Virus record (IMG/VR): IMGVR_UViG_3300025674_000217
Span: 1-31,510 of that record
Reading direction: 5' to 3' (one strand)
DNA length: 31,510 bases
Source of the DNA: a virus
In this document: piece by piece, positions 5,061 through 29,539 of the stretch
Layout of the letters: each line of letters starts with the position of its first letter
How positions within the stretch are numbered: position 1 is the stretch's first letter
Made by a program: the position numbers and the translations under genes
Notes under the pieces: generated by a model
Told to the model about the DNA's origin: nothing
What the model saw: only the letters and a program-made list of their open reading frames with translations
The model's database searches: none

Positions 5061-5979
5061 AGAAACTACAGAAGGTTTGGGTAGCGGGTTAACAGAGACA
5101 CCCGTCCAGACTGAGAGTAACGTCACAGAGTCTGCACCAAGTGTAGATTTTGGTAGCGAAGATATGTATCGGCAGTTTGTTGATACACTACCAGAGGATG
5201 TACGCGGTGCAAAAGCACTACAAGAGACAAAAGACTTTGCATCTCTTGCAAACCAGATGTTAAACGCTCAAAGTGCTTTGGGTAAGAAACGTCTTGAAGC
5301 ACCACAGGAAGACTGGGGTGATGATCAATGGGAGGAGTTTTATGGAAACTTACGCCCAGAGAATGATGAGTACTCAGTACCCGAAGAGATTCAGCTACCA
5401 GAGGGTTTTGACGGTGTTGAAGCTCCTCAGTTTGACGACGATACAGTCCAAGAACTTGTAGATTTTGCAGGTGAGCTTGGACTAACTCAGCGTCAATTTG
5501 ATCAGCTATACAATCGCTACGGTCAGATGTATGCCGAAGGCAATCAGCAGCTCACTGGTAATCAGGAAGAGACACTGAAAGAGTACAAAGCAGCCTTACA
5601 TGCTGATTGGAAGGATGACTTTGATGTCAATCTTAAGGGAAGTAAGGAGGCATTTTCTGCGCTTTCTCAGGAGATCCCAGAGCTTAATGATCTCATTCAA
5701 GATCCCACAGTTGCAAACCACCCAGCTACATTAAAATTGTTCCATAAATTAGCTGGCACAATGGGTGATACATTACCACCGTCAGGTAGCAACGTACCGT
5801 CTGCTTTTGGCAGTGGCTCAGTTCAGGGTATTCGTGCGCAGATTCAAGATTTGGATGCATCTAATTCCGAGTTGATTTTGTCGAATCCTTCGTCGCTACC
5901 AATGGCTGATCGTGCAAAGCGTCAGCAAATCCTTGACAAACGTGCACAGCTTTATGCTCAGCTGTACGGAGAAGGTTAA
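5053..5979 (+). CDS. Capsid assembly scaffolding protein
   Basis: The 308-aa protein guides capsid assembly and is removed from the mature head. Evidence is its place directly before the major capsid gene, its very acidic N-terminal half (Glu/Asp/Thr rich to about residue 150), a helical Gln-rich middle (LTQRQFDQLYNRYGQMYAEG at about 140-160) and a basic C-terminal helix (RAKRQQILDKRAQLYAQ) that would bind capsid subunits. Length matches T7 gp9 (about 307 aa). AGGA lies about 11 bases before the ATG. A strong terminator follows the gene. Confidence 0.88.
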   Translation: MSEETTEGLGSGLTETPVQTESNVTESAPSVDFGSEDMYRQFVDTLPEDVRGAKALQETKDFASLANQMLNAQSALGKKRLEAPQEDWGDDQWEEFYGNLRPENDEYSVPEEIQLPEGFDGVEAPQFDDDTVQELVDFAGELGLTQRQFDQLYNRYGQMYAEGNQQLTGNQEETLKEYKAALHADWKDDFDVNLKGSKEAFSALSQEIPELNDLIQDPTVANHPATLKLFHKLAGTMGDTLPPSGSNVPSAFGSGSVQGIRAQIQDLDASNSELILSNPSSLPMADRAKRQQILDKRAQLYAQLYGEG

Positions 5980-14121: not shown

Positions 14122-17100
14122 ATGTACGCATACAAACCAAAAAGCTTACGAGTCCCAACAGATCTAAGTAGCGAAATAAGACTTACCAATAGGGGCGAGT
14201 CATTTAAATCATCATTAGAGTATGGTTTGGACACTGCTGTTGGTTGGGTGACAAACACAGCAAAAAACTGGTATGCTGGGGAACAGGATAAAAAGAATGG
14301 TTTGAAGCCTGTAACACAAGAAGATTACGAGGCGTACCAGAAGAACGGTTTACCCATTGAACCAATCGGTAAAGACGAGTATCCGACACAGCTGCACTTA
14401 CGAGCTAAAGAGATTTTTAACAACACACTGCTTCAGCAGAAAATAAACGAGGAGTATCCAGTCACCAATATGGTTGGTATGGTTGCACCGCAGATATTAG
14501 ATCCTGCAAATTTTATCCCATTTGGTTCTGTACTCCGAAGCGGAAGAACACTTTCCAGCGTTGATAAGTTAAATGCTGCAATAATGCAGGGTAATAAATG
14601 GGTTGCTGCAAAGCAGTCTTATAAGAATTATGCAGCAGAGGCATTTGTATCAAACGCTGCTGTATCACCACTGTACTATAAAGATATGCAGTATCGTGGT
14701 GAAAATCCAACTGGTGCTGATGTTCTTTTGGATATTGGACTTGGTACTGGTATAGCCACAGGCTTTTTTGGTTCTATTGCTTCGTATAGAAACTATCAGC
14801 GGGCGGGTAAGAACTTAAACAATGTCCAGACATTTCAGGACATATATAAGTTCATGGAGACTGGCGACTTTGAGCAGGCAACAAATGTCATGTATCAGAG
14901 TAGTCCTGATTTTCGTAAACGGGTAAAATCAGTATCTGAACTTAGTAATGTTGTAGTTAAGTCACTTGAGGATGGTAAGTTGGATTTCTCTACACTTGAT
15001 GATGGTCAGGTGCAGGCTCTTTTGGGTGCGCTGCGTCATCAGTTTGAACGGGGGTTGCATACATCTCTATCAAAAACAATGTCTGAAGAGATTGTTGGTG
15101 ATTTAAGTACAAATGATGATATAGTTATTAACGATTACGCGTACAATCAGCGGAATCGATATGCAACAATCGCTGAAGCAATTGAAGATGGGGATATAAG
15201 TAGGCTAAACGATCGTGATAAAGCGATTGCAGAAACAGTTGTTCGTCGTACGGCTGGTGTGAGTGACTCAATTGAAGAAGGCGATGGGTTCCTACCAACA
15301 GAGTCTACAAAAGGTAAGCTGAATTTTAACTTTGATAATCTAGGCTCTATGGCAGAAGCGCATAAGCGAGCTGGGAATATTGTACGATTGATAAGAGATG
15401 AAGGTGTCTCAAATCTAGAGGATCTTGTTAATAAGGGTGTGATAAGCGAAAAGCAGAGAGAGAAAGCTTTGCGAGAGTTTAATAAAGTATATGAAAAAGC
15501 ATATGCAAGAGAGCTGTCAGTAGCCAACACAGTAATTAATAATATATTTGGTCGTGAGTTTACTTTTGTCAGAATGGCTGAAGAAACTCAAGGTGCTAAA
15601 CGTGCTAAAAGTGGTGTTCTTATGGGCAAAGCTTTTAGAAACGAAGATAAGATTACACTAAACAGAGCTGAAGTTATTTTGGGGATGGGTAAGTCACCGT
15701 TTTCGGTGATGATTCACGAAGCAGTACATATCCTACAAGCTAAAATGCCAGAGGTGTATGCTGAGCTTAACGCAGCTATTAGAAAGCACCCAGACTTTGT
15801 AGAGCAGATTCGGAAGTATAAGGGTCATTACGAAACAGATGCAGTAGAAGGTGAGATACCATCCGTTACTTTGGAGTGGGCTATAACTCAAGAAGCTTTT
15901 TGGAAGCAGTTGCAGAAAACAAACCAGACGCTGTTTGAGCGTTTTGCCGAGGCTCTTGTTGATATAATTAAAAGAACAAAAGAGTTGTTTTCTAAATCAA
16001 AGCTAAACACAGAGTTTTTGGATGATGTTGATAAGTTATTGGTAGACATGACTCCAGAGACGTTTGCTACTCAGTTAGCTGTTATAATAAACAAAGGTCG
16101 TAAACATAATCTGCCCTATAATGAACTACTGGAAGCAAATAAGAGTGTTTCCGATAATGTTGCGAATCTTTTGTATACAGAACCAGTTGATGTTAAGCAA
16201 AAAACACCAGCAGATCGCTTAGTTGATGATTACAAGCCAGAGAAAACAGTGGCTGCGCAAAATGCTAAGTTGCGCGAACACCGCAGACAAACCTTTAATA
16301 GGTTGGCTGCTACAACAATGCCAAATGTCCGTGGGGAAAACGTACAGCGGTTTGTTGAGACACTGACCAATTATATAGACGAGCTAGCTGAGGGTGTTGA
16401 TCCAGATGCACAGGAGTTCATTAGCTTTAACGAATACAGAGGACGTATCCGTGAGTTCACAAGTGAAATTGTTGATGAGGATCTAACACGCGAAGATATT
16501 CTGTCAGCTACAGAGTACAACGAGTTGTACGAGAATCTTCGGATGTATGCAATGAATGTTGTCAACGACAAGTCTTTGCTACGTAATAATGATCTCTATC
16601 GTAAAGTTATTCGCGGCACGGTGGATTTGGAGCAAACATCTGTTCAGTACCGTTCAGCTAAGAATCGTATCGTAAAGGAGTATTACGAGGATAAAGCACA
16701 AACCATTGTTAGCAACGCAATGAAGCGCGCAGCTATTAATGAGCGGTTGCGCAACTTTAAGACAGATGCTCAGAAGCTCGCATATTTACGTACACTTCTT
16801 GACGGTCAGGAGCGTAAGGGTATGCCACGGATCGCAGGTTTGGAGAATGAGATGACTGCTAACTCTCAGAATGCAGCAGTACCTATTCTTGATGTTATTT
16901 ATAAACACGGGCTGGATGAGTTGTTTATGCCAGACAACAGCTTTGGTATCTTTAAGCATGATCGAAGAGACAAGCGTTTTAGTATGTTTGGTAAAAAACG
17001 GAAAGAGCGGTCATATGCCTTCCATCGACAGCTGCATCAAGCGTTGTTAGCTCGTAAGCTTCCAAAAGAGTGGGAAGCGGAACCAGCACTTAAGGAGTTA

Positions 17101-19062
17101 TTTGATGTTATACTTGCAACAGAGGTTCGCTTACTTGAAGAACTAAACGCTGCAGGTCTGGACATCAAGATGCTTTCTGACTTTGGTGGTGTGTCTCAGA
17201 AGTGGGACGGCACTATTATCCATAACATGGGCTTTAAGAAATTTAAGGCTCGTATGTTAGAGGTTATGGACGTAGAAGCCACGTCCAATACACACGCAGG
17301 TGTATTGTTTATTGATGGTAAGGAGCAGCCTTTCACAGTAGATGCTTTCTTAGAGCAGTGGTACGACACATTAAATCCAAGTAAACGAATTGATTCGGAT
17401 GTACAGGTTTTTGACCTAGAAGAAACTTTTGGTGGTCGTATGGTTCGCATTAAGCCTGAGTACGCAACAGACGTGATGCTTGAGTTTAGTGGCTACGATA
17501 ATGTAGGATACTTGATGTTGCAGCAGATACAGCGTCGTTCGGCACTGGCTACAATGGCAAGTTTTGCAGGTACAAAGCCCAATGAAATGTTGTCTGGCTT
17601 GACTCGTGATTTAAGAACAGATCGCGGAAAAAATGCAGTAGACGCAAAATCATACAAAGCAACAGTGGATTCACTTACAGGGATTTTAGATAACCCAGTA
17701 GATTCGACATTAGCTACCTTTGAAAATAAGGTTAAGCAGTACAGCAACTTAGTGTTTTTGTCTGGTTCTGGTATTTCGTCGCTAACCGACATACCAATGG
17801 TTGCGTCGACACTGGAGATGATGGGCATTAAATTTGGTGAGACAAACAAACTATTCCTAGAAGCATACGCAGAAGGAATGCGCCGTCGTTTTGGTAATGA
17901 TAAGGATGGAATGCGTGAGTTTTTCTTAGGACAAGGAGCAGGCTTTGATGCAATTAATAACCAAGTCATTCGTCGCTTATCAGACACCACAACGAATGTG
18001 GGTAAGATGGACAAGCTACACAACTTGTTGTTTAAAGTAAATGGCTTGAATGCGTTAACCACAACACACCAAGAATTGTTTGTTGATGTGCTGACTCAGG
18101 GTATTGCTCGTGAATTTGATAAGCCAGCAATAAGCAGAGAGCTTCGTTCAAACTTGATAGATTTTGGTTTTACAGCAGAAGAAATAAACAGTCTTCGTAA
18201 AGGTGTAACCCAATCACCAGATGGTATATATCGACTGGTTCCAACTGGGATTAGGAGTGCAGAGCTTGCACAGAAGTATCGCCAGTACATTACCAAGTAT
18301 ATGCGTCAGGCGGTCTTTATGCCAGATGCAGGTACAAATGCCCAGATGACCCTTGGTTTCCGAAAGGGTACATTTGCTGGTACATTGACGCGTATTGCTA
18401 CACAGTACCAACCGTTTATGCTTGGCATGACCAAGTTGTTGTATCGTCGTTTTAAAAATGGAGACTTTGGTAAGGGTGACTCTGCGATGATGTACAAGAC
18501 AGCGCATTTGGTGTCTTACATTGGTGGAGCGTTAGCTTTTGGCTATATGGCTACTGTTTTAAAGGACATAGCTAGAGGTGAAAAACCAATATCGTTATTG
18601 GACATGCGAGCATACCAGTGGTCACGAATAGTTCAGCAGTCTGGTATTCTGGGAGTTCTGGAAGTACCTTTGGATATTAAGGACTTTGGGGTACAGGAGG
18701 CGTTGTCTCCATTACCGTCCACAATTTTTGGGTTAGCTGTAGATCTTTCAACAGGTGATTCAAAAGGAGCAATGAAGAACTTGCAGTCCCTTACAGGTAG
18801 TAATGTATTCGGACCTCCTCAGTGGTTTCACGGTCTAATCGGTCAGGTTATGACTGAGTATCTTGCTGAAATTCAACAAGATCTGCTAGAAGATCTTGAC
18901 AATATGTCATTCTCACAGATTAAAAATGCGGTAGATAAGGAAGTTAAGGCTGGTAATATCGCAGTAATCACAGAAAATGGAAAACCTGTAAAACTGATCA
19001 CAAAAGACAAAGAAACTAAAGCCCTAGTAAACGAGTTCAAGGAACGTATTCACCAAAAATAG
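14122..19062 (+). CDS. Giant ejection protein with HExxH motif (T7 gp16-like)
   Basis: The 1646-aa protein occupies the T7 gp16 place (1318 aa in T7) as the last and largest ejection protein. I see no lytic transglycosylase motif at the N-terminus. Instead a zinc-metallopeptidase-like motif IHEAVHILQ sits at about residues 531-539, with His532, Glu533 and His536. A possible third acidic ligand lies 40-50 residues on. The C-terminal third contains LVFLSGSGISSLTDIPMVAS and a hydrophobic segment near 1461-1480 that could meet membrane. The organisation recalls the phage polyvalent proteins with embedded peptidase domains. Ejection function is inferred from order; peptidase activity from the motif alone. 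Confidence 0.75.
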   Translation: MYAYKPKSLRVPTDLSSEIRLTNRGESFKSSLEYGLDTAVGWVTNTAKNWYAGEQDKKNGLKPVTQEDYEAYQKNGLPIEPIGKDEYPTQLHLRAKEIFNNTLLQQKINEEYPVTNMVGMVAPQILDPANFIPFGSVLRSGRTLSSVDKLNAAIMQGNKWVAAKQSYKNYAAEAFVSNAAVSPLYYKDMQYRGENPTGADVLLDIGLGTGIATGFFGSIASYRNYQRAGKNLNNVQTFQDIYKFMETGDFEQATNVMYQSSPDFRKRVKSVSELSNVVVKSLEDGKLDFSTLDDGQVQALLGALRHQFERGLHTSLSKTMSEEIVGDLSTNDDIVINDYAYNQRNRYATIAEAIEDGDISRLNDRDKAIAETVVRRTAGVSDSIEEGDGFLPTESTKGKLNFNFDNLGSMAEAHKRAGNIVRLIRDEGVSNLEDLVNKGVISEKQREKALREFNKVYEKAYARELSVANTVINNIFGREFTFVRMAEETQGAKRAKSGVLMGKAFRNEDKITLNRAEVILGMGKSPFSVMIHEAVHILQAKMPEVYAELNAAIRKHPDFVEQIRKYKGHYETDAVEGEIPSVTLEWAITQEAFWKQLQKTNQTLFERFAEALVDIIKRTKELFSKSKLNTEFLDDVDKLLVDMTPETFATQLAVIINKGRKHNLPYNELLEANKSVSDNVANLLYTEPVDVKQKTPADRLVDDYKPEKTVAAQNAKLREHRRQTFNRLAATTMPNVRGENVQRFVETLTNYIDELAEGVDPDAQEFISFNEYRGRIREFTSEIVDEDLTREDILSATEYNELYENLRMYAMNVVNDKSLLRNNDLYRKVIRGTVDLEQTSVQYRSAKNRIVKEYYEDKAQTIVSNAMKRAAINERLRNFKTDAQKLAYLRTLLDGQERKGMPRIAGLENEMTANSQNAAVPILDVIYKHGLDELFMPDNSFGIFKHDRRDKRFSMFGKKRKERSYAFHRQLHQALLARKLPKEWEAEPALKELFDVILATEVRLLEELNAAGLDIKMLSDFGGVSQKWDGTIIHNMGFKKFKARMLEVMDVEATSNTHAGVLFIDGKEQPFTVDAFLEQWYDTLNPSKRIDSDVQVFDLEETFGGRMVRIKPEYATDVMLEFSGYDNVGYLMLQQIQRRSALATMASFAGTKPNEMLSGLTRDLRTDRGKNAVDAKSYKATVDSLTGILDNPVDSTLATFENKVKQYSNLVFLSGSGISSLTDIPMVASTLEMMGIKFGETNKLFLEAYAEGMRRRFGNDKDGMREFFLGQGAGFDAINNQVIRRLSDTTTNVGKMDKLHNLLFKVNGLNALTTTHQELFVDVLTQGIAREFDKPAISRELRSNLIDFGFTAEEINSLRKGVTQSPDGIYRLVPTGIRSAELAQKYRQYITKYMRQAVFMPDAGTNAQMTLGFRKGTFAGTLTRIATQYQPFMLGMTKLLYRRFKNGDFGKGDSAMMYKTAHLVSYIGGALAFGYMATVLKDIARGEKPISLLDMRAYQWSRIVQQSGILGVLEVPLDIKDFGVQEALSPLPSTIFGLAVDLSTGDSKGAMKNLQSLTGSNVFGPPQWFHGLIGQVMTEYLAEIQQDLLEDLDNMSFSQIKNAVDKEVKAGNIAVITENGKPVKLITKDKETKALVNEFKERIHQK

Positions 19063-19852: not shown

Positions 19853-20020
19853 GTGGAAGAAGTTATCCAGCGGTCTGTGGTAGGAACAGGTGGTTTTTTA
19901 GCTACTTTGGGACTGTCGGGTGTGAACGATGTGTTAGGTTTTTGCGTAGCAGTTGCAACTATAACGTATATGTCTTTATCTATATACCGCATTATTAAAG
20001 AGATGCGGGAAAAGAAATAA
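19853..20020 (+). CDS. Small membrane protein, possible holin
   Basis: The 55-aa product starts with GTG at 19853, one base after the previous stop, and its TAA overlaps the next ATG (TAATG). The sequence has a short charged N-terminus (VEEVIQRS), a Gly-rich hydrophobic stretch (VVGTGGFLATLGLSG), a second hydrophobic segment (VLGFCVAVATITYMSLSIY) and a basic C-terminus (KEMREKK). One or two membrane passes with a positive end is typical of class II-type holins. It is followed by two more membrane proteins, so a lysis cassette is likely. Confidence 0.7.
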   Translation: MEEVIQRSVVGTGGFLATLGLSGVNDVLGFCVAVATITYMSLSIYRIIKEMREKK

Positions 20021-20337
20021 TGGTTGACCTCAATGACAGCACTAATATCACGATACCTCTACGCAATCTACTTGCGTTGATTTTTGCTGTCGCTGTATCC
20101 GTTACTGGCTACGTCAATTTAATTTCACGCATTACCCACTTAGAACAAACTCAGCACGTCAAGGATATAGAGGTCGGGATGAACTCAGAGTTCCGCATCA
20201 AGTGGCCCCGTGGCGAACTTGGTGCATTGCCTGATGACGCTGAACAAAATTTACGCCTTACCTACGTTGAATCAAATCTCAAAGAAATCAATAATGTAGT
20301 TCGGAAGCTACAGGTCAAAGAAGGGATAACTGAATAA
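20020..20337 (+). CDS. Single-pass membrane protein in lysis cassette
   Basis: The 105-aa protein has an N-terminal membrane segment (LLALIFAVAVSVTGYVNLI, about 17-35) and then a charged helical region with RITHLEQTQHVKD, the distinctive block EFRIKWPRGELGALPDDAEQNLRL and a C-terminal coiled coil (NLKEINNVVRKLQ). One anchor with an extracytoplasmic coil would suit a spanin- or antiholin-like role, but no spanin hallmark is clear. I recall similar WPRGELG proteins in marine phages without known function. It begins in a TAATG overlap with the preceding membrane protein gene. Confidence 0.7.
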   Translation: MVDLNDSTNITIPLRNLLALIFAVAVSVTGYVNLISRITHLEQTQHVKDIEVGMNSEFRIKWPRGELGALPDDAEQNLRLTYVESNLKEINNVVRKLQVKEGITE

Positions 20338-20341
20338 AATT

Positions 20342-20746
20342 ATGACCCCAGAACTTATAGCTATGCTCGGCGGAGGCGTGAGTGGTTTTGTAATGAAACT
20401 GATCGCCGCGCAGATGCAGAACCAAGCAGCACTGTTTGAACAGACCATTAAGAAGCAGGAAGTGGCTGATGCATCGGCTGATGCTGCTGCTAAGCGTGGC
20501 GGTTCCAGTGGTCCATGGGTTCGTCGGTTTATTACTGTGGCGACTATGTTCGCAGTAATAGCAGCTCCCTTTATTGTTGCGTTTACTGACGTAGGAGTAT
20601 CAGTACAAAAGGACACAAGCTTTTTGTTTGGTCTTATTAAAGGAGCCAAGTGGGAGACAATCACTGGCTATGTAATTTTACCAGAAGTTCGGCAGACAGC
20701 ATTGGCTATCGTTGGCTTCTATTTTGGTTCATCTCAAGTTAAATGA
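20342..20746 (+). CDS. Probable 3-TM-type holin
   Basis: The 134-aa protein has an N-terminal hydrophobic stretch (LIAMLGGGVSGFVMKLIAA, about 5-23), a Gln/Ala-rich cytoplasmic helix, a basic link (GPWVRRF), a strong membrane segment (ITVATMFAVIAAPFIVAF, about 64-81) and a C-terminal segment ending YVILPEVRQTALAIVGFYFGSSQVK-like sequence. This matches the layout I recall for three-TM holins of gene-transfer-agent and marine phage type. The last 93 bases of the gene, stop included, are duplicated at 21803-21895 beyond the protease gene. No endolysin gene is adjacent. Confidence 0.72.
   Translation: MTPELIAMLGGGVSGFVMKLIAAQMQNQAALFEQTIKKQEVADASADAAAKRGGSSGPWVRRFITVATMFAVIAAPFIVAFTDVGVSVQKDTSFLFGLIKGAKWETITGYVILPEVRQTALAIVGFYFGSSQVK
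20654..20746 (+). repeat. Left copy of 93-bp imperfect duplication (holin 3' end)
   Basis: This is the intact holin gene end and matches 21803-21895 at 87 of 93 bases (offset 1149). Differences lie at 20656, 20660, 20704, 20713, 20725 and 20745. Five of the six are silent, counting TGA/TAA. Only ATC/GTC (Ile/Val) changes the protein. Confidence 0.95.
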
Positions 20747-20775
20747 ATGATCTTTCATAACAAAAGAAAGAAGTA

Positions 20776-21804
20776 ATGCAGACAAGGTTTTCCAGTGTCT
20801 CCGAGTCTTACCAGTCTGTAGAAAACTCTACTACACGGGCTCTTTTACGAGAGTTTCCTAAATCAGCAAACTGGAGAGATGTGTTGTCCAAAGATGTAGA
20901 CGCTGGAGCTAATGCTACTCTTGACCAGAGAAAACTGTTTACAACTGTAGACCACACTACGCCTTCGTATGTGACAAACACAGACTTTTGGCTGAAGGGA
21001 TATGAACAGGCTTTTACTTGCCGAGCACCTTATAGTGAAGAGGCAGCAGACAACCTTAGACTTACTACTGCCGTTACTCCAAGACACGCTGTTTCGGCTT
21101 GGCACTCTGAGTATACTCCAAACGTGGGTACAAAGGTTCGTTTTGTAACAACTGATAATACAGTTATTGAGAGAACTGTTGTACAACAGAGTAGTCAACT
21201 TACTTGGAATGATCCAGTTAGTGGACCTGTAAATACGGACATTGGAGTAATCTTACTTGACTCTGATTTACCTAGTACAATAACACCATGTAAGATATTT
21301 CCATCTGCCTACAAGAATGTTTTACACGATGTAGATCAAACAAGCAGTAGTTCTTCACGATCTAACATAGTAGATAGAGTTGAAAAACCACGTATAGCCC
21401 TAGTAGCTTGTGATCAAGAACATAAAACACACCCTTTTACTCACGAAACTTTTAGACCAAATCGTAATTTTTACGATAAAATCTGGGCAGTTTTTTATGG
21501 ACTAAATAATGACTCGTTTGACTATCCTCACGATCAAGTTACAGGAAATTATCCTTCTTGGAAAAGAACTTGGGGTAGGTGGTTTGTAAAACCAGAAAGC
21601 ATAGTAACTGGAGATTCTGGTAATCCAATTTTTTGTGCAGTAAACAAAGAACTTTGGCTGGTTAGCCTTTTTTATGGCCCAAACAGTGGTCCTTTCTACG
21701 CTAACCTTATTCCAGAAGTAAATGCAGCAATTGCTGCTCTTGACACAGCCCAAGGAATTGATACAGGTTATACTCTTACAGAAGGAAATTTATTAGACCT
21801 ATGA
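20776..21804 (+). CDS. Trypsin-like serine protease (cargo gene)
   Basis: The 342-aa protein carries a chymotrypsin-type triad in the right order. His104 is in TAVTPRHAVSAWH, Asp155 in NTDIGVILLDSDLP and Ser281 in TGDSGNPIF, the classic GDSG. The C-terminal KELWLVSLFYG could be the strand behind the substrate pocket. There is no signal peptide or membrane segment, so it acts in the cytoplasm, after lysis or in the virion. The gene sits between the holin gene and a repeated fragment of the holin gene, a sign of insertion. A purine-rich AAAGAAAGAAG precedes the ATG, unlike most neighbours. I recall similar trypsin-like proteins in environmental virus and bacterial sequences, without defined role. 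Confidence 0.85.
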   Translation: MQTRFSSVSESYQSVENSTTRALLREFPKSANWRDVLSKDVDAGANATLDQRKLFTTVDHTTPSYVTNTDFWLKGYEQAFTCRAPYSEEAADNLRLTTAVTPRHAVSAWHSEYTPNVGTKVRFVTTDNTVIERTVVQQSSQLTWNDPVSGPVNTDIGVILLDSDLPSTITPCKIFPSAYKNVLHDVDQTSSSSSRSNIVDRVEKPRIALVACDQEHKTHPFTHETFRPNRNFYDKIWAVFYGLNNDSFDYPHDQVTGNYPSWKRTWGRWFVKPESIVTGDSGNPIFCAVNKELWLVSLFYGPNSGPFYANLIPEVNAAIAALDTAQGIDTGYTLTEGNLLDL

Positions 21805-21895
21805 AACAGTCACTGGCTATGTAATTTTACCAGAAGTTCGGCAGACAGCATTAGCTATCGTCGGCTTCTATTTCGGTTCATCTCAAGTTAAATAA
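21803..21895 (+). pseudogene. Holin 3'-end fragment (right copy of duplication)
   Basis: These 93 bases repeat 20654-20746 and would encode the last 30 residues of the holin (ITGYVILPEVRQ-type sequence with Val for Ile) ending in TAA. No in-frame start exists, because upstream codons belong to another frame of the protease gene. The fragment is followed after two bases by ATG, the tight spacing usual here. This suggests the right copy is the original gene junction and the protease was inserted in front of it. Confidence 0.9.
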
Positions 21896-21897
21896 TT

Positions 21898-22011
21898 ATG
21901 CCTAAAGTAAACGGAAAAGAGTACTCGTACACACCTAAAGGAATTGCAATGGCTAAGGCTGCTGCAAAGAAAAAAGGTAAGAAAGTAAAATATAACCGTA
22001 AGCAAAAGTAA
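21898..22011 (+). CDS. Tiny basic protein (37 aa)
   Basis: The product begins PKVNGKEYSYTPKGIAMAKA, continues with alternating Ala and Lys and ends in NRKQK. I recall short MPKVGKK..YT..G..AAK proteins of this kind in many marine phages; their role is not known to me. The high positive charge suggests nucleic-acid binding. The gene follows the holin relic by two bases and precedes the next small gene by two bases. It opens a block of four small basic proteins. Confidence 0.75.
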   Translation: MPKVNGKEYSYTPKGIAMAKAAAKKKGKKVKYNRKQK

Positions 22012-22013
22012 CA

Positions 22014-22154
22014 ATGCCTAAAGATGCTTGCTATAAAAAAGTCAAAGCTAGGTATAGGGTATTCCCCTCTGCTTATGCTTCTGGTGCTATTGCAAAGTGT
22101 CGTAAAGTTGGCGTAAGCAGTTGGGGTAGCAAATCAAAAAAGAAAAAAAAGTAA
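22014..22154 (+). CDS. Small Lys-rich protein with CYKKVKxxY box (46 aa)
   Basis: The sequence contains ACYKKVKARYRVFPSAYASG followed by AIAKCRKVG and ends in a Lys run. This resembles the small CYxKVKxxYxVxPSAYASGAxxxCRKxG proteins I recall from cyanophages and giant viruses (DUF5872-like, name uncertain). Two Cys and many basic residues suggest DNA or metal binding. The stop TAA directly abuts the next ATG in the same frame, so rare readthrough would give a fusion. Confidence 0.78.
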   Translation: MPKDACYKKVKARYRVFPSAYASGAIAKCRKVGVSSWGSKSKKKKK

Positions 22155-22430
22155 ATGGCGGTTCGCAAGACAGCAAAGGGTGCAGCTCTTCGGAGATGGT
22201 TCAAAGAGGACTGGAAAGATGTTCGCTCAGGGAAGCCCTGCGGACGACAAGAGGGCGAAAAGCGCGGAACGCCATATTGCAGACCATCGAAGCGTGTGAG
22301 TTCAAAGACACCTGCGACCTCAAGCGAAATATCCGAAAGTGAAAAACGCACACGGATTTCTGAGAAAAAAAGAATTGGACAACCAGCGGGTAAACCACGT
22401 AAAGTAAAAGCTATTCGTAGAAAAAAATGA
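22155..22430 (+). CDS. Small basic protein with GKPCGRxEGEKR box
   Basis: The 91-aa protein has KGAALRRWFKEDWKDVRSG, then KPCGRQEGEKRGTPYCRPSK (two Cys), then KRVSSKTP and a Lys/Arg-rich tail. I recall this pattern (RWFKExWxDxxxGKPCGRxxGEKRxxPxCRPSxRVSxxTP) from cyanophage and giant-virus proteins related to the preceding one. The role is unknown; the repeated Cys and basic content fit a nucleic-acid-binding or packaged protein. It overlaps the next gene by ATGA. Confidence 0.8.
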   Translation: MAVRKTAKGAALRRWFKEDWKDVRSGKPCGRQEGEKRGTPYCRPSKRVSSKTPATSSEISESEKRTRISEKKRIGQPAGKPRKVKAIRRKK

Positions 22431-22666
22431 GAAAAGAACATAAGAGCAAGACAGGCGGTCTGACCGCAGCGGGACGTCGATACTTTAAAGCCAAGGAAGG
22501 AGCCAACCTAAAGGCTCCTGTAACTGGTAAAGTGAAGCGTGGGTCCAAGGCTGCTAAGCGTCGTAAGTCTTTCTGTGCTCGTATGGGCGGGGTCAAGGGA
22601 CCAATGAAGGACTCTAAGGGACGTCCTACAAGAAAAGCACTGGCACTACGTAAGTGGAAATGTTAA
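22427..22666 (+). CDS. Small basic protein with KSFCARMGG box
   Basis: The 79-aa protein starts MRKEHKSKTGGLTAAGRRYF and has LKAPVTGKVKRGSKAAKRR, KSFCARMGGVKGPMKDSKG and a C-terminal RKALALRKWKC. This strongly resembles a small protein family I recall from marine phages and giant viruses (DUF6321-like; name from memory). The two Cys and dense Lys/Arg suggest DNA contact. It starts inside the end of the previous gene (ATGA) and is followed three bases later by the first fibre gene. Confidence 0.82.
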   Translation: MRKEHKSKTGGLTAAGRRYFKAKEGANLKAPVTGKVKRGSKAAKRRKSFCARMGGVKGPMKDSKGRPTRKALALRKWKC

Positions 22667-22669
22667 CAA

Positions 22670-23302
22670 ATGGCTACTTATAATTTATCACAAACTGCCG
22701 CTGAAATTGATTCAGCTATCGGTAAGGTACACAACGCTGACACAACACCTACGCAGGGCAGTACCAATATGGTGACAAGTGATGGTGTATTTGATGCTGT
22801 TAACAGCATTGGTATTTCTGCACTGCCGATCATAACAGAAGTTGATGGAATCACCAATTACGACAACGATCAATATATTCCAACAAATGCGGCGGTAAAG
22901 GATTACGTGGATAGTAAGACACCATCATTACTTTCCGCCACGAAATCGACACAAACTGTCAATACTGACACCGATGTTAGTGGATACACCCTTAGCGGGT
23001 CAGGTATTTCCGAATCATCTGGAACTGTTACTATTACTGGAGCTGGCGTTTGGATAGTTAGGTTTTACATCAAAGCATCACTGTCGAGCACAAACTACAA
23101 TGCAGCTTACAATGTTGAATTTTATTTAAACAATTCTGTGGCGCACTATAAAAGGTTTAGCAGCACTGCAGAATCAACTTTCAATGATACTCTTTTGGTT
23201 AACTCCACTAATTCTTTTACTGTTAAAATTAGAGCAGATGAGCTTGCAGGAAGTTCAAGTTGCACAATAAACGATGCAACAATCCAAGCGGTTAAACTAT
23301 GA
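22670..23302 (+). CDS. Tail fibre / receptor-binding protein 1
   Basis: The 210-aa protein has two parts. Residues 1 to about 83 (SQTAAEIDSAIGKVHNADT to NAAVKDYVD) are shared with the next gene and resemble a fibre base or spacer unit common in phage tail proteins. Residues about 88-210 form a separate beta-rich tip (VTITGAGVWIVRFYIKASLS, VEFYLNNSVAHYKRF) that looks like a C1q/TNF-type jelly roll. Such tips bind the cell surface. The gene follows the basic protein block and overlaps the second fibre gene by ATGA. Confidence 0.75.
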   Translation: MATYNLSQTAAEIDSAIGKVHNADTTPTQGSTNMVTSDGVFDAVNSIGISALPIITEVDGITNYDNDQYIPTNAAVKDYVDSKTPSLLSATKSTQTVNTDTDVSGYTLSGSGISESSGTVTITGAGVWIVRFYIKASLSSTNYNAAYNVEFYLNNSVAHYKRFSSTAESTFNDTLLVNSTNSFTVKIRADELAGSSSCTINDATIQAVKL

Positions 23303-23820
23303 GTACTTTTTCATTATCACAGACAGGGACTGAGATTAACTCAGCTATCGGTAAGGTACACAATGCCGATACCACACCAACGGAGGGCAGTACCAGTATG
23401 GTGACAAGTGGTGGTGTATACACGGCTGTTAATAATGTTGGTATTTCTGCGTTGCCGATTACAACAGAAGCTGAGGGAATTGCCAATTACGACAATGATG
23501 ACAATGTTCCAACAAATGCCGCTGTTAAGGATTACGTGGATAATTCGGCTGTGCCTAACTATACTGGTGGTGAATCTGCTACTCTTTCTGGTGGGTTAAT
23601 CATAAAATTTGGTTCAGGAACTATAGGTGGGGATACCTCTGAAAATATCTCATTCACAACTGCATTCCCGACAGGTATTAAAACAGTGCACGTAACGCAA
23701 ACAGGCAGCAGTTCTATCCCGAAACATTTTATAGTGTCAAGCAGCTCAACATCGGGTTTTACTTTAAAAAATACAGTAGATGCTGCAGCCAGTTTTATGT
23801 GGACTGCTTTTGGTTACTAA
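23299..23820 (+). CDS. Tail fibre / receptor-binding protein 2
   Basis: The 173-aa paralogue of the preceding gene has about 83 shared N-terminal residues (SAIGKVHNADTTPT, GISALPI, NYDND, PTNAAVKDYVD). The C-terminal tip is different: GLIIKFGSGTIGG, ISFTTAFPTGIKTVHVTQ and FMWTAFGY at the end. That tip resembles the gp53-like C-terminal fibre domain I recall, with its FPTAFP strand and terminal W.A.GY. Two tips on a common base could bind two receptors or form a mixed fibre. It is the last gene of the plus-strand operon. Confidence 0.8.
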   Translation: MSTFSLSQTGTEINSAIGKVHNADTTPTEGSTSMVTSGGVYTAVNNVGISALPITTEAEGIANYDNDDNVPTNAAVKDYVDNSAVPNYTGGESATLSGGLIIKFGSGTIGGDTSENISFTTAFPTGIKTVHVTQTGSSSIPKHFIVSSSSTSGFTLKNTVDAAASFMWTAFGY

Positions 23821-23821
23821 C

Positions 23822-23847
23822 TTAAACCTATGAGTACTTTTTCATAA
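23822..23847 (+). pseudogene. Relic of a third fibre-gene start
   Basis: TTAAAC followed by TATGAGTACTTTTTCAT reproduces the junction between the two fibre genes (23292-23314), with one extra C. Here the frame ends after five codons in TAA. It looks like the left edge of a lost, or template for a gained, further fibre gene, sitting directly before the terminator. Confidence 0.75.
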
Positions 23848-23881
23848 AAAAAGCCCCAGACCTTACGATCTGGGGCTTTTT
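23846..23881. terminator. Two-way terminator between convergent operons
   Basis: An 8-bp stem (GCCCCAGA 23853-23860 with TCTGGGGC 23869-23876) and an 8-base loop are flanked by seven As on the left and five Ts on the right. Either transcript therefore gets a U tract after the hairpin. It closes the plus-strand late operon and the minus-strand replication operon. Confidence 0.93.
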
Positions 23882-23895
23882 GTGTCTTATTGCTT

Positions 23896-24879
23896 TTAAC
23901 GATAAGCTTCACCGTCAATAATACGGTAATTGTTTACCTCAAACTTCTTACCCTTGTGGGTGATCTCAGCGAAGCCCAAGTTCCATTGGTTCACTGGCAT
24001 ATAGTCTGGCTCTAGGTCACACAAGCAACCGACTGACCAGCAGGCGATTGTGTTGTTGTCCATAGACTTGACTGAGTGCTGACTAGTCTTGTGCTTGTGA
24101 CCAGCAATTGTACAGACTCCAGTCTTTACTTGCAGCGTACGTGCAAAGTTTACTGGGTCAAAGGTATTAAAGAACTCGTGTCCGTGAAGTATCCAGAGTC
24201 CGCCAGCCTTACATAGTTGACGACCGCCGATCTCTTGGATGTCCAAGTCTTCAAAGCGTAGAAGTTTCTCAAGCTTAAAGTCTGGTACACCGCAGACTTC
24301 TGGAGCCTTGCGCCACAGGAACTTTTCCCAGCGTTCTTCGTGGTTACCTACTTTGAAATAGATATTGGCTTCTGGGAACCGCTCACGTAGGTGCATCAGG
24401 AACTGGCGACTTGCCTGTAACTCGCCTGCTAGGTCACGACTGTTTGGGTCTGACTCCCAGCGACTGGTTGCATAGAAGTCAACTGTGTCACCATTTAGTA
24501 CGATATTGGTTGGGTCTTTACAGTGGTCGAGCGCACATTCAAGAGCGTCAACATCGTGGAAAGGTAGATGGATGTCCGAAAGTAGCAGCGTTTTACCGTC
24601 TGGTAAGTTGACCACACGTTTCTTGGAAACAAGAGACTTTGGGATCTTGTACTCACCAGCCTTGCCGTTCTTACGGAAATACTTGGTATTGGGACCAGCG
24701 TCCATTCGGTTCTTCTTCCCAGAGTTACCACGAGCGTAGCGTACTGCATTGCGGGCAGCTTCCACGGTTGTGTACAGGTTGGGGTTTTCTTTGATGATTA
24801 ACAGAGCAATTGTACGGTTCCCATGTTCTGGGTACTTACTGATGTACTCTCGGACGAGATCTACCTTTTTACGTTTCAT
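23896..24879 (-). CDS. Calcineurin-like metallophosphoesterase with N-terminal helical domain
   Basis: The 327-aa protein has all metal-binding motifs of the family: SDIHLPFHD (Asp102, His104), NGDTVDF (Asp131), GNHEER (178-183), LHGHE (231-235) and AGHKHKT (259-265). The first 60 residues (EYISKYPEHGNRTIALLIIKE, VEAARNAVRYARG) look like a winged or HTH-type DNA-contact domain. Phage enzymes of this type may be nucleases (Mre11/SbcD-like), phosphatases or nucleotide hydrolases. The replication operon and possible DNA-binding N-terminus favour a nucleic-acid role, which is inference. It ends the minus-strand operon next to the two-way terminator. Confidence 0.88.
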   Translation of the reverse strand: MKRKKVDLVREYISKYPEHGNRTIALLIIKENPNLYTTVEAARNAVRYARGNSGKKNRMDAGPNTKYFRKNGKAGEYKIPKSLVSKKRVVNLPDGKTLLLSDIHLPFHDVDALECALDHCKDPTNIVLNGDTVDFYATSRWESDPNSRDLAGELQASRQFLMHLRERFPEANIYFKVGNHEERWEKFLWRKAPEVCGVPDFKLEKLLRFEDLDIQEIGGRQLCKAGGLWILHGHEFFNTFDPVNFARTLQVKTGVCTIAGHKHKTSQHSVKSMDNNTIACWSVGCLCDLEPDYMPVNQWNLGFAEITHKGKKFEVNNYRIIDGEAYR

Positions 24880-24881
24880 AA

Positions 24882-25070
24882 CTATAGTGTTAAAAGCTTT
24901 TCTTCAAGACGTGCATTCTTAGCCTTGAGTGCCTGTATATCTTTGTTGAGTTGTTTGTTTTGTTCTGTGAGTGCGTCACAGGCTAGTGATAGTGAATGCA
25001 GACCACGTTCCAGTATTCTTTGCTGGTTCTGGTCAAATATTGAGCGGTTGGTTGATGGTATTTTGGTCAT
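24882..25070 (-). CDS. Small coiled-coil protein
   Basis: The 62-aa product has a polar N-terminus (TKIPSTNRSIFDQNQQ) and then heptad-like helix (LHSLSLACDALTEQNKQ, IQALKAKNARLEEKLLTL). Its ATG overlaps the helicase stop (ATGA at 25067-25070) and its stop is two bases from the metallophosphoesterase gene, so it belongs to the operon. It could be an adaptor for the neighbouring helicase or nuclease. No family is recognised. Confidence 0.65.
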   Translation of the reverse strand: MTKIPSTNRSIFDQNQQRILERGLHSLSLACDALTEQNKQLNKDIQALKAKNARLEEKLLTL

Positions 25071-26497
25071 TTTATGATTTCAATTAAGTCGTCTAACACC
25101 ATGTTGGACAGTTCTTTCTTTTCTTGAAGTCGTTTAAGAATCGCGTCGTCTACAGTTTGTGGAACCACAAGGTCAATGTATGTACACTTGTTGTCCTGAC
25201 CGATACGGTGGATGCGGTCTTGGCTCTGGAGTCTGGTTTCAAGGCTGTAGTTATTGGAGTAGTACACCATTGTTGATGCACGGTGTAATGTCAAACCCTT
25301 CGCAGCAGCAGAGGTGGCAAGGAAGAAATCAGCCTGACCATTTTGGAACTGACGAACTCCTTCGTTACGTACCTTGTCACTGACATTGCCAGTGTACTCC
25401 ACGATCTTTTTGCTAGGGAACTTCTTCTCCAGAGCCTCACGGATCTGCTGGATATTAAACTTGTAGGCACAGAACACTACCAGAGGCTGTGTTGTCTCCG
25501 CAATTTGCAGAAGAGCAGCTATCCTGTTGTTTTCAATGGCGTGTTCTGTGCCGTCATCAGCTGTAATAAACCCTGTTAGGATTTGTTGTAGCTTGACGAT
25601 GCGCGTTAGCGCGATAGTGGATGTGACTAGTTCGCCACCTTCTAAAAGTGCAAGGCAGTCGTCTTTCATTGACTTGTAGATCTTGCGTTGTTCCGCAGTC
25701 ATTTCGATGGCTACCTGTGTGAATGTTTTGTCTGGTAAGTCTAAGCAGTCTTTCTTCTCGATACGCAGAGTAAATGGCTCAAGTAACTTGGTCAGGTTCT
25801 CAAGGTTCTGGTAACCGATAATCTTACGGAACGAACGGCTGCCCATTGTCATTGTAGTCTCAATGGCAAATGCGTGTTTGAACGCAGTGTACGTAGTGTA
25901 TGGAATAGCGTTCTTGTTAAGGAACTTGCACTGCGTAAACAAATCAAGCGGGCTTTGTGTGATCGGTGTACCGTTGAGTATCCACTTACGGTCAACTTGT
26001 TCAGCCAGTTTAAGCACACGCTTTGTCTGTATCGCTTTTGGATTCTTGATACAGGTGGACTCGTCAATAATCATATGCCTAAGACCGACGCAGGTAGACA
26101 AGAATTTGTTAGTGGTGTCAAAGCCAGCAGCGGTACGTATAGCCTCTACATTGATTAGGAAGATTCTGCAGACGTCCGTTGTTTTGCAGAATCGGTTGAA
26201 CTCCTGCTGCGCCTTCTTTGATTTGATTGGTCCCTTCCAGCAGTACGTTAGAACTGGTGTGTTGCTACTGGAACCAACGTGCTTGGGGATTTCGTTTACT
26301 TCCCAGTTGTGGTGTAGACCATTGGGAGCGATGACAACAGCTTCGAATAAGTCTGTGGAGTTGCGAACGATGTCGAGTACAATCTTGGTTTTGCCTGTAC
26401 CCATCTCGCAGAACAGCGCACCGTAGGCTTTGTTGGCAAATCGCTCAACTGCTTCGCGCTGGTGTTTTAGTGGTTTTGTTTTGTATACGTAGTTCAT
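25067..26497 (-). CDS. SNF2-like superfamily 2 helicase
   Basis: This 476-aa ATP-dependent DNA translocase has the Q-like N-terminus LKHQREAV, Walker A MGTGKTK (32-38), motif Ia IAPNGLHHNW, Walker B IIDEST (143-148), motif III NGTPI (175-179), a helicase C domain with VVFCAYK (340-346) and motif VI QSQDRIHRIGQ (424-434), diagnostic of SNF2/RapA-type enzymes. It is compact, with no extra chromatin-type domains. It likely acts as a replicative or branch-processing helicase beside the SF1 helicase. Start and stop overlap both neighbours by ATGA, indicating coupled translation. Confidence 0.92.
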   Translation of the reverse strand: MNYVYKTKPLKHQREAVERFANKAYGALFCEMGTGKTKIVLDIVRNSTDLFEAVVIAPNGLHHNWEVNEIPKHVGSSSNTPVLTYCWKGPIKSKKAQQEFNRFCKTTDVCRIFLINVEAIRTAAGFDTTNKFLSTCVGLRHMIIDESTCIKNPKAIQTKRVLKLAEQVDRKWILNGTPITQSPLDLFTQCKFLNKNAIPYTTYTAFKHAFAIETTMTMGSRSFRKIIGYQNLENLTKLLEPFTLRIEKKDCLDLPDKTFTQVAIEMTAEQRKIYKSMKDDCLALLEGGELVTSTIALTRIVKLQQILTGFITADDGTEHAIENNRIAALLQIAETTQPLVVFCAYKFNIQQIREALEKKFPSKKIVEYTGNVSDKVRNEGVRQFQNGQADFFLATSAAAKGLTLHRASTMVYYSNNYSLETRLQSQDRIHRIGQDNKCTYIDLVVPQTVDDAILKRLQEKKELSNMVLDDLIEIIK

Positions 26498-28014
26498 GGT
26501 AACGGATAGAATCGTGTGGTTACTGGGTAGTGCAGATACAGATTTTTCTTGGCGCGTGTGCAGGCGACATAGAATACACGGTGTTCGTTGTCTGGATCTT
26601 TACGGTAGTGTTGGTAGGTAGTCTGTGTCATATCGGGCATAACAACTACGTTGTCAGCCTCTCTACCTTTTGATGCGTGAATGGTATTTACTTCAATGTT
26701 GGCAGCCTTGTCAAACGTACCTTCTTTTTCTGCGTGCAGTAAGATTGACTTAGTTGCGTCTGGCAGACGAAACACTTGATCCCACTTTGCAAGTGTACGC
26801 AGACCGAAGTTGGAAATGAGTTCTTCTTTCTCAAACAAATGATTGTCTGGCATTGTATCGATAAGTGTCTTGGCTCCACGTCCCACGGCTACGCCTGTCG
26901 GTAAGTAGTCGCGATACAGTTCTTTGATGAGCGATGCCTTGAACTTGTAACCAAGACGTAGTTGTTCCCACATCTTGATGAAAAAGATCTGACGTTCTTT
27001 GAACAACGATGTGTCACCGCCTGATACAAACAACAGTTTCTTCTTTAGCAGGTAGCCTTCGAAGATGGACATGAGAACCTTGTTCCGACAGAGCAGGAAC
27101 CAAGTTCCTTGGGTGAAGTCCAGATCGTTAAGCGATCGGATATTGTGTACACAGCCTTCGTCGTTGTGTTCGTACGGTGTAACACTGTACTCCTGTTTCT
27201 CTGTGATCTGATTGGCTACGGTTTCTGCATACGCAAGTACTTTCTTGGGCAGGCGGTACGTTGTGTCCAGAATGATGCGGTCACCTTCCTTTTCAATTAG
27301 TGACTTAGGGTCACCGCCAGAGAACTTAAAGATACTTTGCTTGTCGTCGCCAGCAATGAATACCTGTTTAACTTCATTGGAGATATAATTGATAATGTTC
27401 CACTGAAGCGGTGACAAGTCCTGTGCTTCGTCAACGAATAGATAGTCAACATTTAGTTTTACCTTGTGAGCAAGGAATGCTTCCAGTTGGTCGGTGAAGT
27501 CGTACTTGTTTTTTTCTGCTCTGAACTGGCGGTAGAATTTTGAGAACTCTTCCAGTTCTTCGGGCTTGAATTTTGTATTGACTTGGTCCGCAAGAACCGT
27601 GGCTGCTGGTTGTAGCGTGTTACGCATAAGTGACTCGTACTGTAATAACCTGTCACCCTTACCCAGATTACTGGTAGAGTTGTTGTTGTACAGCGATGCG
27701 GAACCTGTGATTGACAGACCCAGTAACTGACCCAGCAATTTGTAGTCCTGACTGTTCAGCATCTGCTTGTGCGGTACACGTCGGTAGCACAGCGCGTGTA
27801 GTGTACTGAATGCAGAGAAGTCTTTCTCTTCGTAGTCAGGATTCTTTACAAGAGCGCGGTCGATAGCTTCCTGTGCTGCTGCTTTGGTAAAACTGGTAAA
27901 GCAAATCTTATTCGGTTTGGTGTTCTCCAGACAGACAGATAGCCTGTCCATCAGTGTCGTTGTTTTACCTGTACCAGCACTGGCTACATAAATTGTTGTA
28001 TTAGTAGTTGTCAT
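26494..28014 (-). CDS. UvrD/PcrA-like superfamily 1 helicase
   Basis: This 506-aa 3'-5'-type helicase has Walker A ASAGTGKTT (11-19), motif Ia SFTKAAA (41-47), Walker B FVDEAQD (193-199), motif III GDDKQSIFKFSGG (222-234), motif IV near LDTTYRLPK, motif V NTIHASKGREAD (443-454) and motif VI VFYVACTRAKK (480-490). It is shorter than cellular UvrD (about 720 aa), so the 1B/2B domains are reduced. It would unwind phage DNA during replication or recombination. It starts 14 bases inside the primase gene end and overlaps the SF2 helicase gene by ATGA. Confidence 0.95.
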   Translation of the reverse strand: MTTTNTTIYVASAGTGKTTTLMDRLSVCLENTKPNKICFTSFTKAAAQEAIDRALVKNPDYEEKDFSAFSTLHALCYRRVPHKQMLNSQDYKLLGQLLGLSITGSASLYNNNSTSNLGKGDRLLQYESLMRNTLQPAATVLADQVNTKFKPEELEEFSKFYRQFRAEKNKYDFTDQLEAFLAHKVKLNVDYLFVDEAQDLSPLQWNIINYISNEVKQVFIAGDDKQSIFKFSGGDPKSLIEKEGDRIILDTTYRLPKKVLAYAETVANQITEKQEYSVTPYEHNDEGCVHNIRSLNDLDFTQGTWFLLCRNKVLMSIFEGYLLKKKLLFVSGGDTSLFKERQIFFIKMWEQLRLGYKFKASLIKELYRDYLPTGVAVGRGAKTLIDTMPDNHLFEKEELISNFGLRTLAKWDQVFRLPDATKSILLHAEKEGTFDKAANIEVNTIHASKGREADNVVVMPDMTQTTYQHYRKDPDNEHRVFYVACTRAKKNLYLHYPVTTRFYPLP

Positions 28015-29539
28015 CAGTTTCTAGGTTTGGCATTGGCTGCGTTGGGTCGAGGTGTAGGTTGTCACCGTGTACTCGCCAACAACGGATCTGTGAACCACCG
28101 AGTGATACTCGTGTGGTGTCAGCCTTCAGTGTTCGCTTAAGTACGGACAGCAGTTTATTGTCTGCTAGTTCCGAGAACCGCTGCTGGTTTAGGTAATCTT
28201 TTAGGTCAACCATGCGGAAGACGTACCAACTACCAGCTTGTTTGACAGCACCGTTCTTAATGTGGCTGACATCTTCGCTGGCGTTGGCACAGAACGTGGA
28301 CAGATATTCAACAAACTGTCCAACAGGCGTCATCTCAAATGGTACTTCGATGCGCACACAGTTCTTGAGTAGCAGGTTCTGCTGCTTCACCCAGTCTTCT
28401 TGCTTGATTGGCGGGTACTTGAACAGTAACCGCTCCATTACGCGCTGGTTAAACATATTGAAGTTGTCGAACTCAGCGGTTGTTAGCTGTATCTCTTCGT
28501 GGTCAAGAGTCAGGAACCACAGAGGTGGATCACTCTTGAGTTGGATAAGCGAACGGTTGTTTGGCAGGAACTCTTCCTGCCCGATTCCGTGACGACGTTG
28601 TCCGCACATCTTAGCGTCACAGTATCTGCACAGTGGCTCTTGGGCACACTGGTACTTGTAGTCCTTTTTCTCATAGGACTTGATTATGGCGTCTACTTCT
28701 CTGTCAGGTAAAGGATCTGAAAACTTCTTATTGAATTTATGAAGCATTGATTTCCAGTCCGATGGCTCTGCTTTTTTGAGGTACACTGCTACATTGGACA
28801 ATGTTACGTTTCGGTTCTCTGATTCTTTGGTTCTCTTTTCGAATATATAATTCAGGCAAGGTGGACCCTCTGGCAGCAACTCCTCGGTTCCCAACTTGGG
28901 AACTTCAAGGTTGCCAAAATCTTCTAACGATAATCTACGCTTTGTTGCGTACTCAATAAATGCTTCTGGGTTTAGTGCCTGACCTTCTTCGTCAATGGCA
29001 TACTGTAACGTGGGGTTACCGCTGTACGGCATATTGATCCAGTTGCCGTACTTACTGTCGTCTTTGCGGTTACCAATCTTTGGCTGCTTCGGATATATCT
29101 CACAGACGCCTTGACCAAAGAACGCACTGTACGTCTTTAGCTTGTCAATCATATCCTTCGCTGGAACAGGCTCCGACATGAACAGGTAGACGTGCGCACC
29201 GCCAGACTTGGAACGACATATAATAAACGGCAACTTATGCTCGTTGACGCTGGCTCGTAAGTCTTCAATGGTACTGGAATCTTGGTACACGTCGATGTCC
29301 AGTGCGCCCCACATAACTTTGTTGTCTTCAAGGATTGGTGTACAACCAATCAGGCGTTCGCCTTTGATGTGCTCCTCCCACACATCAACAGTTAATTGGG
29401 ACTTTACTAAAAAAGATTTTGAATCTTGCTTACCATCCCTGTCACGAACTTTGCCTGTCAGTTTTGTCTGACCAAAGACGTTAGGGTTGGCTTTGAATAG
29501 TTCGTTAAATTGTGTAGCTAAATGTGTAAGTGGGATCAT
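28001..29539 (-). CDS. Archaeo-eukaryotic-type primase with Cys-rich C-terminal domain
   Basis: The 512-aa protein would make primers for phage replication. AEP motifs are ALDIDVY (Asp81 and Asp83), CRSKSGGAHVYLF (108-120) with the catalytic His, and GNWINMPY (165-172). Next comes PPC (Cys228) and RNVTLSNVAVYL, then CAQEPLCRYCDAKMC (Cys298, 304, 307, 312). Four or five cysteines in this order suggest a zinc site or a PriL-like iron-sulphur domain. The C-terminal 150 residues are of unknown fold. No TOPRIM or T7 gp4-type helicase is fused; helicases are separate downstream genes. The start lies right behind a terminator. Confidence 0.85.
   Translation of the reverse strand: MIPLTHLATQFNELFKANPNVFGQTKLTGKVRDRDGKQDSKSFLVKSQLTVDVWEEHIKGERLIGCTPILEDNKVMWGALDIDVYQDSSTIEDLRASVNEHKLPFIICRSKSGGAHVYLFMSEPVPAKDMIDKLKTYSAFFGQGVCEIYPKQPKIGNRKDDSKYGNWINMPYSGNPTLQYAIDEEGQALNPEAFIEYATKRRLSLEDFGNLEVPKLGTEELLPEGPPCLNYIFEKRTKESENRNVTLSNVAVYLKKAEPSDWKSMLHKFNKKFSDPLPDREVDAIIKSYEKKDYKYQCAQEPLCRYCDAKMCGQRRHGIGQEEFLPNNRSLIQLKSDPPLWFLTLDHEEIQLTTAEFDNFNMFNQRVMERLLFKYPPIKQEDWVKQQNLLLKNCVRIEVPFEMTPVGQFVEYLSTFCANASEDVSHIKNGAVKQAGSWYVFRMVDLKDYLNQQRFSELADNKLLSVLKRTLKADTTRVSLGGSQIRCWRVHGDNLHLDPTQPMPNLETDDNY

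Follow-up and report, generated by a model that had tools for sequence, protein, structure and literature searches.

A protease of predicted chymotrypsin fold between two holin ends in a marine phage, and its tail-fibre-linked relatives

Behind the holin-like gene of a marine phage lies an intact gene for a serine protease of predicted chymotrypsin fold, followed by a second copy of the end of the holin-like gene. Here we report that the two holin ends belong to two different gene neighbourhoods, each found intact in relatives, and that the protease is a truncated member of a family otherwise encoded with tail-fibre genes. We consider it fairly probable that the gene is the catalytic domain of one such tail-fibre-linked S1 protease of Verrucomicrobiota phages, freed by recombination between two phage lineages.

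The window—the whole stretch of DNA that was analysed—is a 31,510-base virus record from IMG/VR. Its host is probably a Verrucomicrobiota bacterium, because the holin-like gene is also found in Verrucomicrobia phage P8625 (PMC4642752) and the protease family occurs in Verrucomicrobiota genomes. All genes of the locus lie on the forward strand. An open reading frame for a 105-amino-acid small membrane protein with one hydrophobic segment (20020–20337), continuous with the holin-like gene in relative L022, precedes the complete holin-like gene (20342–20746; 134 amino acids; phrog_38283, function unknown). The holin-like protein has two clear hydrophobic segments, and no match to Pfam holin families was found among the 13 members searched; its identity as a holin is unproven, and we use ‘holin-like’ simply as a label. 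Its gene ends in the left copy of the 93-bp holin end (20654–20746), with a TGA stop codon that overlaps the start of a remnant of the gene tm50 (20743–20776). The 342-amino-acid protease gene (20776–21804), the right copy of the holin end (21803–21895), the gene for a 37-amino-acid basic protein, mpk37 (21898–22011), and a 46-amino-acid gene, mpkd46 (22014–22154), follow.

Other parts of the window encode further proteins of note. A 1,646-amino-acid protein (14122–19062, forward strand), probably internal to the virion and present also in the relative L004, contains, near residue 531, an HExxH motif of the metalloprotease type (MIHEAVHILQAKMPE). Two tandem fibre-like genes (22670–23820, forward strand) have 252-bp 5′ ends that are 80% identical and diverge beyond; the second has a gp53-like tail fibre domain at its end. 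A replication block on the reverse strand (25067–29539) comprises an SNF2 helicase, a UvrD helicase and a primase, the best match of which is the archaeo-eukaryotic primase domain of TOTE conflict systems (PF22548).

Two holin ends from two gene neighbourhoods

The two copies of the holin end align over 93 positions with 6 differences, all of them transitions (GAG/GAA, ATC/GTC, TTG/TTA, GTT/GTC, TTT/TTC and TGA/TAA). Five are silent and one exchanges isoleucine and valine, exactly as counted in the preliminary description of this DNA. With 94% identity over 90 bp (E ~1e-36), the resemblance is not due to chance. The right copy, which ends in TAA, is an untranslated scrap, as its holin frame contains no start codon. 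The excess of silent differences has P = 0.004 when all substitutions are considered and P = 0.024 when only transitions are, the class to which all six belong; taken alone, the argument from silent differences is weak. Polarisation against outgroups gave no signal, as each variant is present in several relatives.

Among 78 distinct holin genes, a second holin end was found only in the window phage and its near twin, L002. As L002 is a separate IMG/VR contig with the same arrangement, a chimeric assembly is unlikely. All substitutions between the two phages in the first 5.8 kb of their overlap (14, plus a 3-base gap) fall at 20173–20536; from 20537 to 25897 the sequences are identical, with no substitution for 5.36 kb, up to 25898. 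The end of this cluster at 20537 implies a recent exchange point between window and L002 inside the holin-like gene. Separately, high identity at the holin 3′ end in L007 and L017 had raised the possibility of a conserved DNA-level boundary there. Synonymous identity across the 78 holin genes is not raised at that end (0.38–0.50, versus 0.42–0.61 elsewhere), and thus we rejected a conserved boundary sequence.

The neighbours of the two ends are more informative. The window sequence after the left end is TGAATGATCTT-TCATAACAAAAGAAAGAAGTAATG. Behind its holin end, L007 has an intact tm50, a membrane gene of 50–51 amino acids that starts ATGAGCGATCTT and ends CATAACAAAAGAAAGAAGTAATG. The window retains the first 4 and the last 7–8 codons of tm50, with around 122 bp lost between them at a CTT microhomology; a 28-bp stretch of the remnant matches L007 at 4533–4560. 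The end of the remnant supplies the protease with a TAATG and a ribosome-binding region, and the protease start codon lies within the same TAATG that starts mpkd46 in L007. An intact tm50 stands 3′ of the holin-like gene in about 12 relatives (L007, L006, L015, L016, L019, L024, L028, L033, L036, L045, L056 and L068).

The right end has a different context. L004 has no protease; its holin-like protein is 100% identical in amino acids to that of the window, and behind its single holin end come TAA-CA-ATG and the 37-amino-acid gene of the window. A relative without the protease and with one holin end, for which the preliminary description had proposed a search, therefore exists. L004 and the window match again from 21803 to 22669, with 94% identity. 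The two sides of the protease differ in their distance from L004, with 8 mismatches in 405 positions (1.98%) over the complete left holin-like gene and 46 in 775 (5.9%) over the right flank (P = 0.002). At the right copy the junction is TAA-TT-ATG, so that the stop-2-ATG spacing remarked on earlier is indeed there, and L004 indicates that this spacing is normal for the mpk37 neighbour. It does not mark the right copy as the original end of the window’s own gene, as had been proposed: both ends are original, the left one to a neighbourhood with tm50 and the right one to a neighbourhood with mpk37.

Thus, the left end (TGA) has the tm50 context and the right end (TAA) the L004-type mpk37 context, and both contexts exist intact and apart from each other in relatives. 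Two ends with different stop codons and separately existing neighbours indicate that two phage lineages recombined. These flanking contexts are the decisive evidence for two parents and much stronger than the silent differences; the earlier conclusion of recombination between related phages, with no recent slip, stands on them and not on the argument first given for it.

The same contexts bear on whether the protease is a cargo gene, or moron, that entered a single holin end in one piece, in which case the 93 bp would be a target-site duplication or a product of slippage that later diverged. The layout does resemble direct repeats around an insert, and L004 provides a relative with an empty site. 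However, the repeats keep the stops and neighbours of two neighbourhoods (TGA-tm50 and TAA-mpk37), five of their six differences are silent despite the right copy being untranslated, the protease has been cut short on either side, where the joints lie, and neither a transposase gene nor the ends of an element were noticed next to it. We regard such an insertion as very improbable, and on the flanking contexts of the two ends we rejected target-site duplication, homing and slippage. The gene neighbourhood around the holin-like gene is heavily reshuffled among relatives.

Fold and catalytic residues of the protease

Searches of the window protein with Pfam, PHROGs and NCBIfam profiles and against PDB sequences returned no trypsin match, and none of the 18 family members was matched by the trypsin models of Pfam or NCBIfam. 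Structure prediction was more revealing. An AlphaFold model (m53214028df3a) built from an 18-sequence alignment has a mean pLDDT of 66.7, a pTM of 0.72 and a core mostly above 80; residues 1–49 and 222–274 are of low confidence. Searched with Foldseek against the PDB, this predicted model matched 687 chains of chymotrypsin fold at E<1e-3, and VIA gave Z 16.0 to chymotrypsin over 194 residues at 3.5 Å, again for the predicted model. The putative chymotrypsin-fold domain spans residues 49–325 (20920–21750; aligned range 48–327, Z of up to 16.0). A full-length relative, L107, was modelled with a pLDDT of 83.9, giving Z 16.6 for residues 155–388; the part ahead of its protease domain is mostly beta strands.

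The predicted catalytic residues His104 (codon 21085–21087), Asp155 (21238–21240) and Ser281 (21616–21618) occur in that order and are invariant in all 18 aligned sequences; the GDSG motif around Ser281 is present in 17 of them. By inspection, the residue six positions before Ser281 is a serine and not the aspartate of trypsin, and a trypsin-like cleavage preference is therefore not indicated: ‘trypsin-like’ refers to the fold and not to specificity. The protein resembles the S1 proteases of the chymotrypsin/trypsin fold, including staphylococcal V8/ESP, in its double beta-barrel (Z 15–16), the order His-Asp-Ser, the GDSG motif and a C-terminal helix; it differs from them in matching no Pfam or NCBIfam model and in an identity of only 7–16% to solved structures. 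On the basis of the model, the window protein is a putative double beta-barrel protease of peptidase family S1, and we file it under the S1 fold, outside any named trypsin subfamily. The complete chymotrypsin-type protease gene first read from the DNA is thus borne out by the intact 342-amino-acid frame, the predicted fold and the invariant triad, and the proposed structure and profile searches gave a match in the first case and none in the second. Neither of the outcomes named beforehand as refuting that reading was found: relatives do not all carry the protease with a duplicated holin end, and a trypsin fold is predicted.

A protease family behind tail-fibre genes

No relative of the window protease was found in the phages collection. 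Phage members of the family comprise 19 further distinct proteins besides that of L002, and the closest of these are only about 42% identical to the window protein. Eighteen phage relatives are not fused to gp15. A fibre-like gene lies directly upstream of the protease in 16 of these, and in the other 2 the contig ends within the upstream gene. The spacing in the 16 is within 5 nt, or the genes overlap by 1–4 nt, apart from L099, in which the called open reading frame gives an overlap of 41 nt. Their upstream genes have a common fibre-like N-terminal motif, and some of the proteins match PHROG tail families.

The relatives are longer at the N terminus, where most have an Ig-like domain, with 411–443 amino acids in total. 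A Big_2 Ig-like domain was matched there in three members, and the N-terminal domain of some also matches phrog_215, ‘structural protein with Ig domain’. Fibre genes and Ig-proteases occur in tandem pairs, up to three, with both partners diverged (L083, 172–6146; L103, 4433–9202; L111, 2103–6828). A more distant member in L110 (1079–2653) has the T4 gp15 tail sheath stabiliser as its first 237 residues and an S1-protease-like domain as its C-terminal half, and is encoded between neck and gp8-like (baseplate) genes; its motif is YDSA instead of GDSG, and thus this protease domain may be inactive.

The family also occurs in bacterial genomes, with matches in 25 of the 289 Verrucomicrobiota genomes that were searched. 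In a prophage member (L138, genome G064), the protease gene is flanked by a tail-fibre gene and a tape-measure gene, at a distance of one small gene. In L139 (genome G257), it lies between an upstream gene that encodes a GDSL esterase domain and, by sequence, apparent lysis genes. Many matches in this phylum are C-terminal domains of long proteins with export-like N termini, or apparent lipoproteins. One chromosomal protein of 1,269 amino acids (L140, 5409–9218) has RCC1 repeats, with the protease domain at its end.

The gene order protease, small membrane gene, holin was found in L070, L077, L085 and L107, with a fibre gene 5′ of it in the latter three and the upstream gene cut in L070. This proximity to holin genes in distant relatives might suggest a homing-like or mobile cassette, in which the protease moves as an element with its own replacement holin end. 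In those phages, however, the protease is upstream of the holin and paired with a fibre gene rather than with a holin end, and a second holin end is absent from every other of the 78 holin loci; a cassette of this kind seems to us scarcely credible.

The family resembles the enzymes of virion tails—depolymerases and esterases on fibres or spikes—in its place behind fibre genes, its Ig-like adaptor and its tandem, swappable modules, and the esterase domain encoded before the protease in L139 belongs to the same comparison. The family differs from them in that its substrate would be protein and not polysaccharide. Tail-fibre enzymes known so far act mostly on polysaccharides, and a search of the open-access literature on trypsin-like tail proteases found nothing directly relevant.

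A virion role for the family is likely, given where its genes lie, the Ig-like domain, the fusion to gp15 and the occurrence of a prophage member in a tail operon. Its likeliest activity would be the cleavage, from the virion, of host surface proteins or of the partner fibre. A rival is a maturation enzyme that would cut the partner fibre, or a chaperone part of it, during assembly instead of host proteins. Strict adjacency and pairing, with one protease per fibre even in tandem arrays, would fit such an enzyme, but the N-terminal Ig-like domain is typical of virion surface parts, no such fibre gene adjoins the window protease and the host homologues resemble exported proteins. As these homologues look exported, cleavage of a host surface protein or receptor is favoured, and we give fibre maturation a small chance.

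Origin and role of the window copy

The window protease and its twin in L002 stand apart from this family. They are encoded outside the tail-fibre module, downstream of the holin-like gene, and adjoin no fibre gene of the relatives’ type. Similarity to the family begins only at around residue 30, so that the Ig-like domain of phage structural proteins, found at the N termini of some relatives, is missing, and with it the adaptor of virion tail enzymes. The family C terminus ...DLSSYxxY is also absent, and the protein ends ...NLLDL instead. The third-position GC content of the gene is 0.25, versus 0.38–0.50 in relatives, which indicates that its donor is not among the sampled phages. The gene had been described as picked-up cargo; the comparison instead identifies a truncated and relocated member of a family that sits behind fibre genes.

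One joint and one deletion would reproduce the window exactly. Lineage A would have carried the 105-amino-acid gene, the holin-like gene and tm50, and lineage B the protease, a membrane gene, a holin-like gene and mpk37. A joint at the TAATG after tm50 of A would have led into the protease gene of B at its Ig/protease boundary, so that the freed domain would acquire a start codon and ribosome-binding site already present there. A later deletion of around 0.5 kb would then have removed the last protease codons, the small membrane gene of B and its holin-like gene except for the last 93 bases. That deletion would also have created the protease stop codon: in the TGA at 21802–21804, the T is from the protease side and the GA from holin codon 104. 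This account holds if B had the order fibre, protease, membrane gene and holin, followed by mpk37. No phage with the order protease, holin, mpk37 was found among the relatives collected, and parent B is therefore hypothetical; the donor order, like the order of the two events and any selective reason for them, is inferred.

Exchange at short, diverged homologies is established in phages, the mosaicism of which arises by relaxed homologous and illegitimate recombination (PMC3945230). The window is alike in having joints at gene ends and in short, diverged homologous stretches; it differs in that a protein domain was captured between a borrowed start and a newly formed stop.

The freed domain might be a fossil, a functionless catalytic domain stranded by recombination and intact because the event was recent. 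The loss of the Ig domain and of the C-terminal motif would accord with this, and the identity of the window to L002 over 5.36 kb means that purifying selection is not measurable. Against it, the frame is open and all catalytic and family-invariant residues are retained as far as Leu339 despite an identity of only about 42% to the closest relatives, and the start codon and ribosome-binding region are in place. A fossil is unlikely in our judgement, and the protease is probably active and released late.

Having lost both the Ig domain and the C-terminal tail that relatives conserve, the window copy may no longer join the virion. It has no membrane segment and no signal-like N terminus, and, as it also lacks the adaptor, our best guess is a soluble enzyme that would be expressed late together with the holin-like protein. 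It would act at lysis or afterwards, or else within the cell on proteins of the virion or the host. Head maturation, listed as an option in the preliminary description, is the least likely role because a gene at 5053–5979 already matches phrog_458, ‘protease’.

The locus is an unusually legible case of domain capture, with a borrowed start, a stop made at the joint and remnants of both parents still present. The family escapes recognition by Pfam, NCBIfam and PHROGs and would therefore be missed by routine annotation. A wider reading is offered tentatively: Verrucomicrobiota phages may duplicate and swap pairs of a fibre and an Ig-protease, one S1 protease per fibre, as units, and the protease domain, also present in an exported protease family of the hosts, would act from the virion to cut protein layers or receptors; in the window, that domain would have been freed at a natural boundary as a soluble late enzyme. 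Verrucomicrobiota are an abundant group with, to our knowledge, very few cultured phages. The recurring pair of a fibre and an S1 protease suggests that these bacteria have barriers or receptors made of protein.
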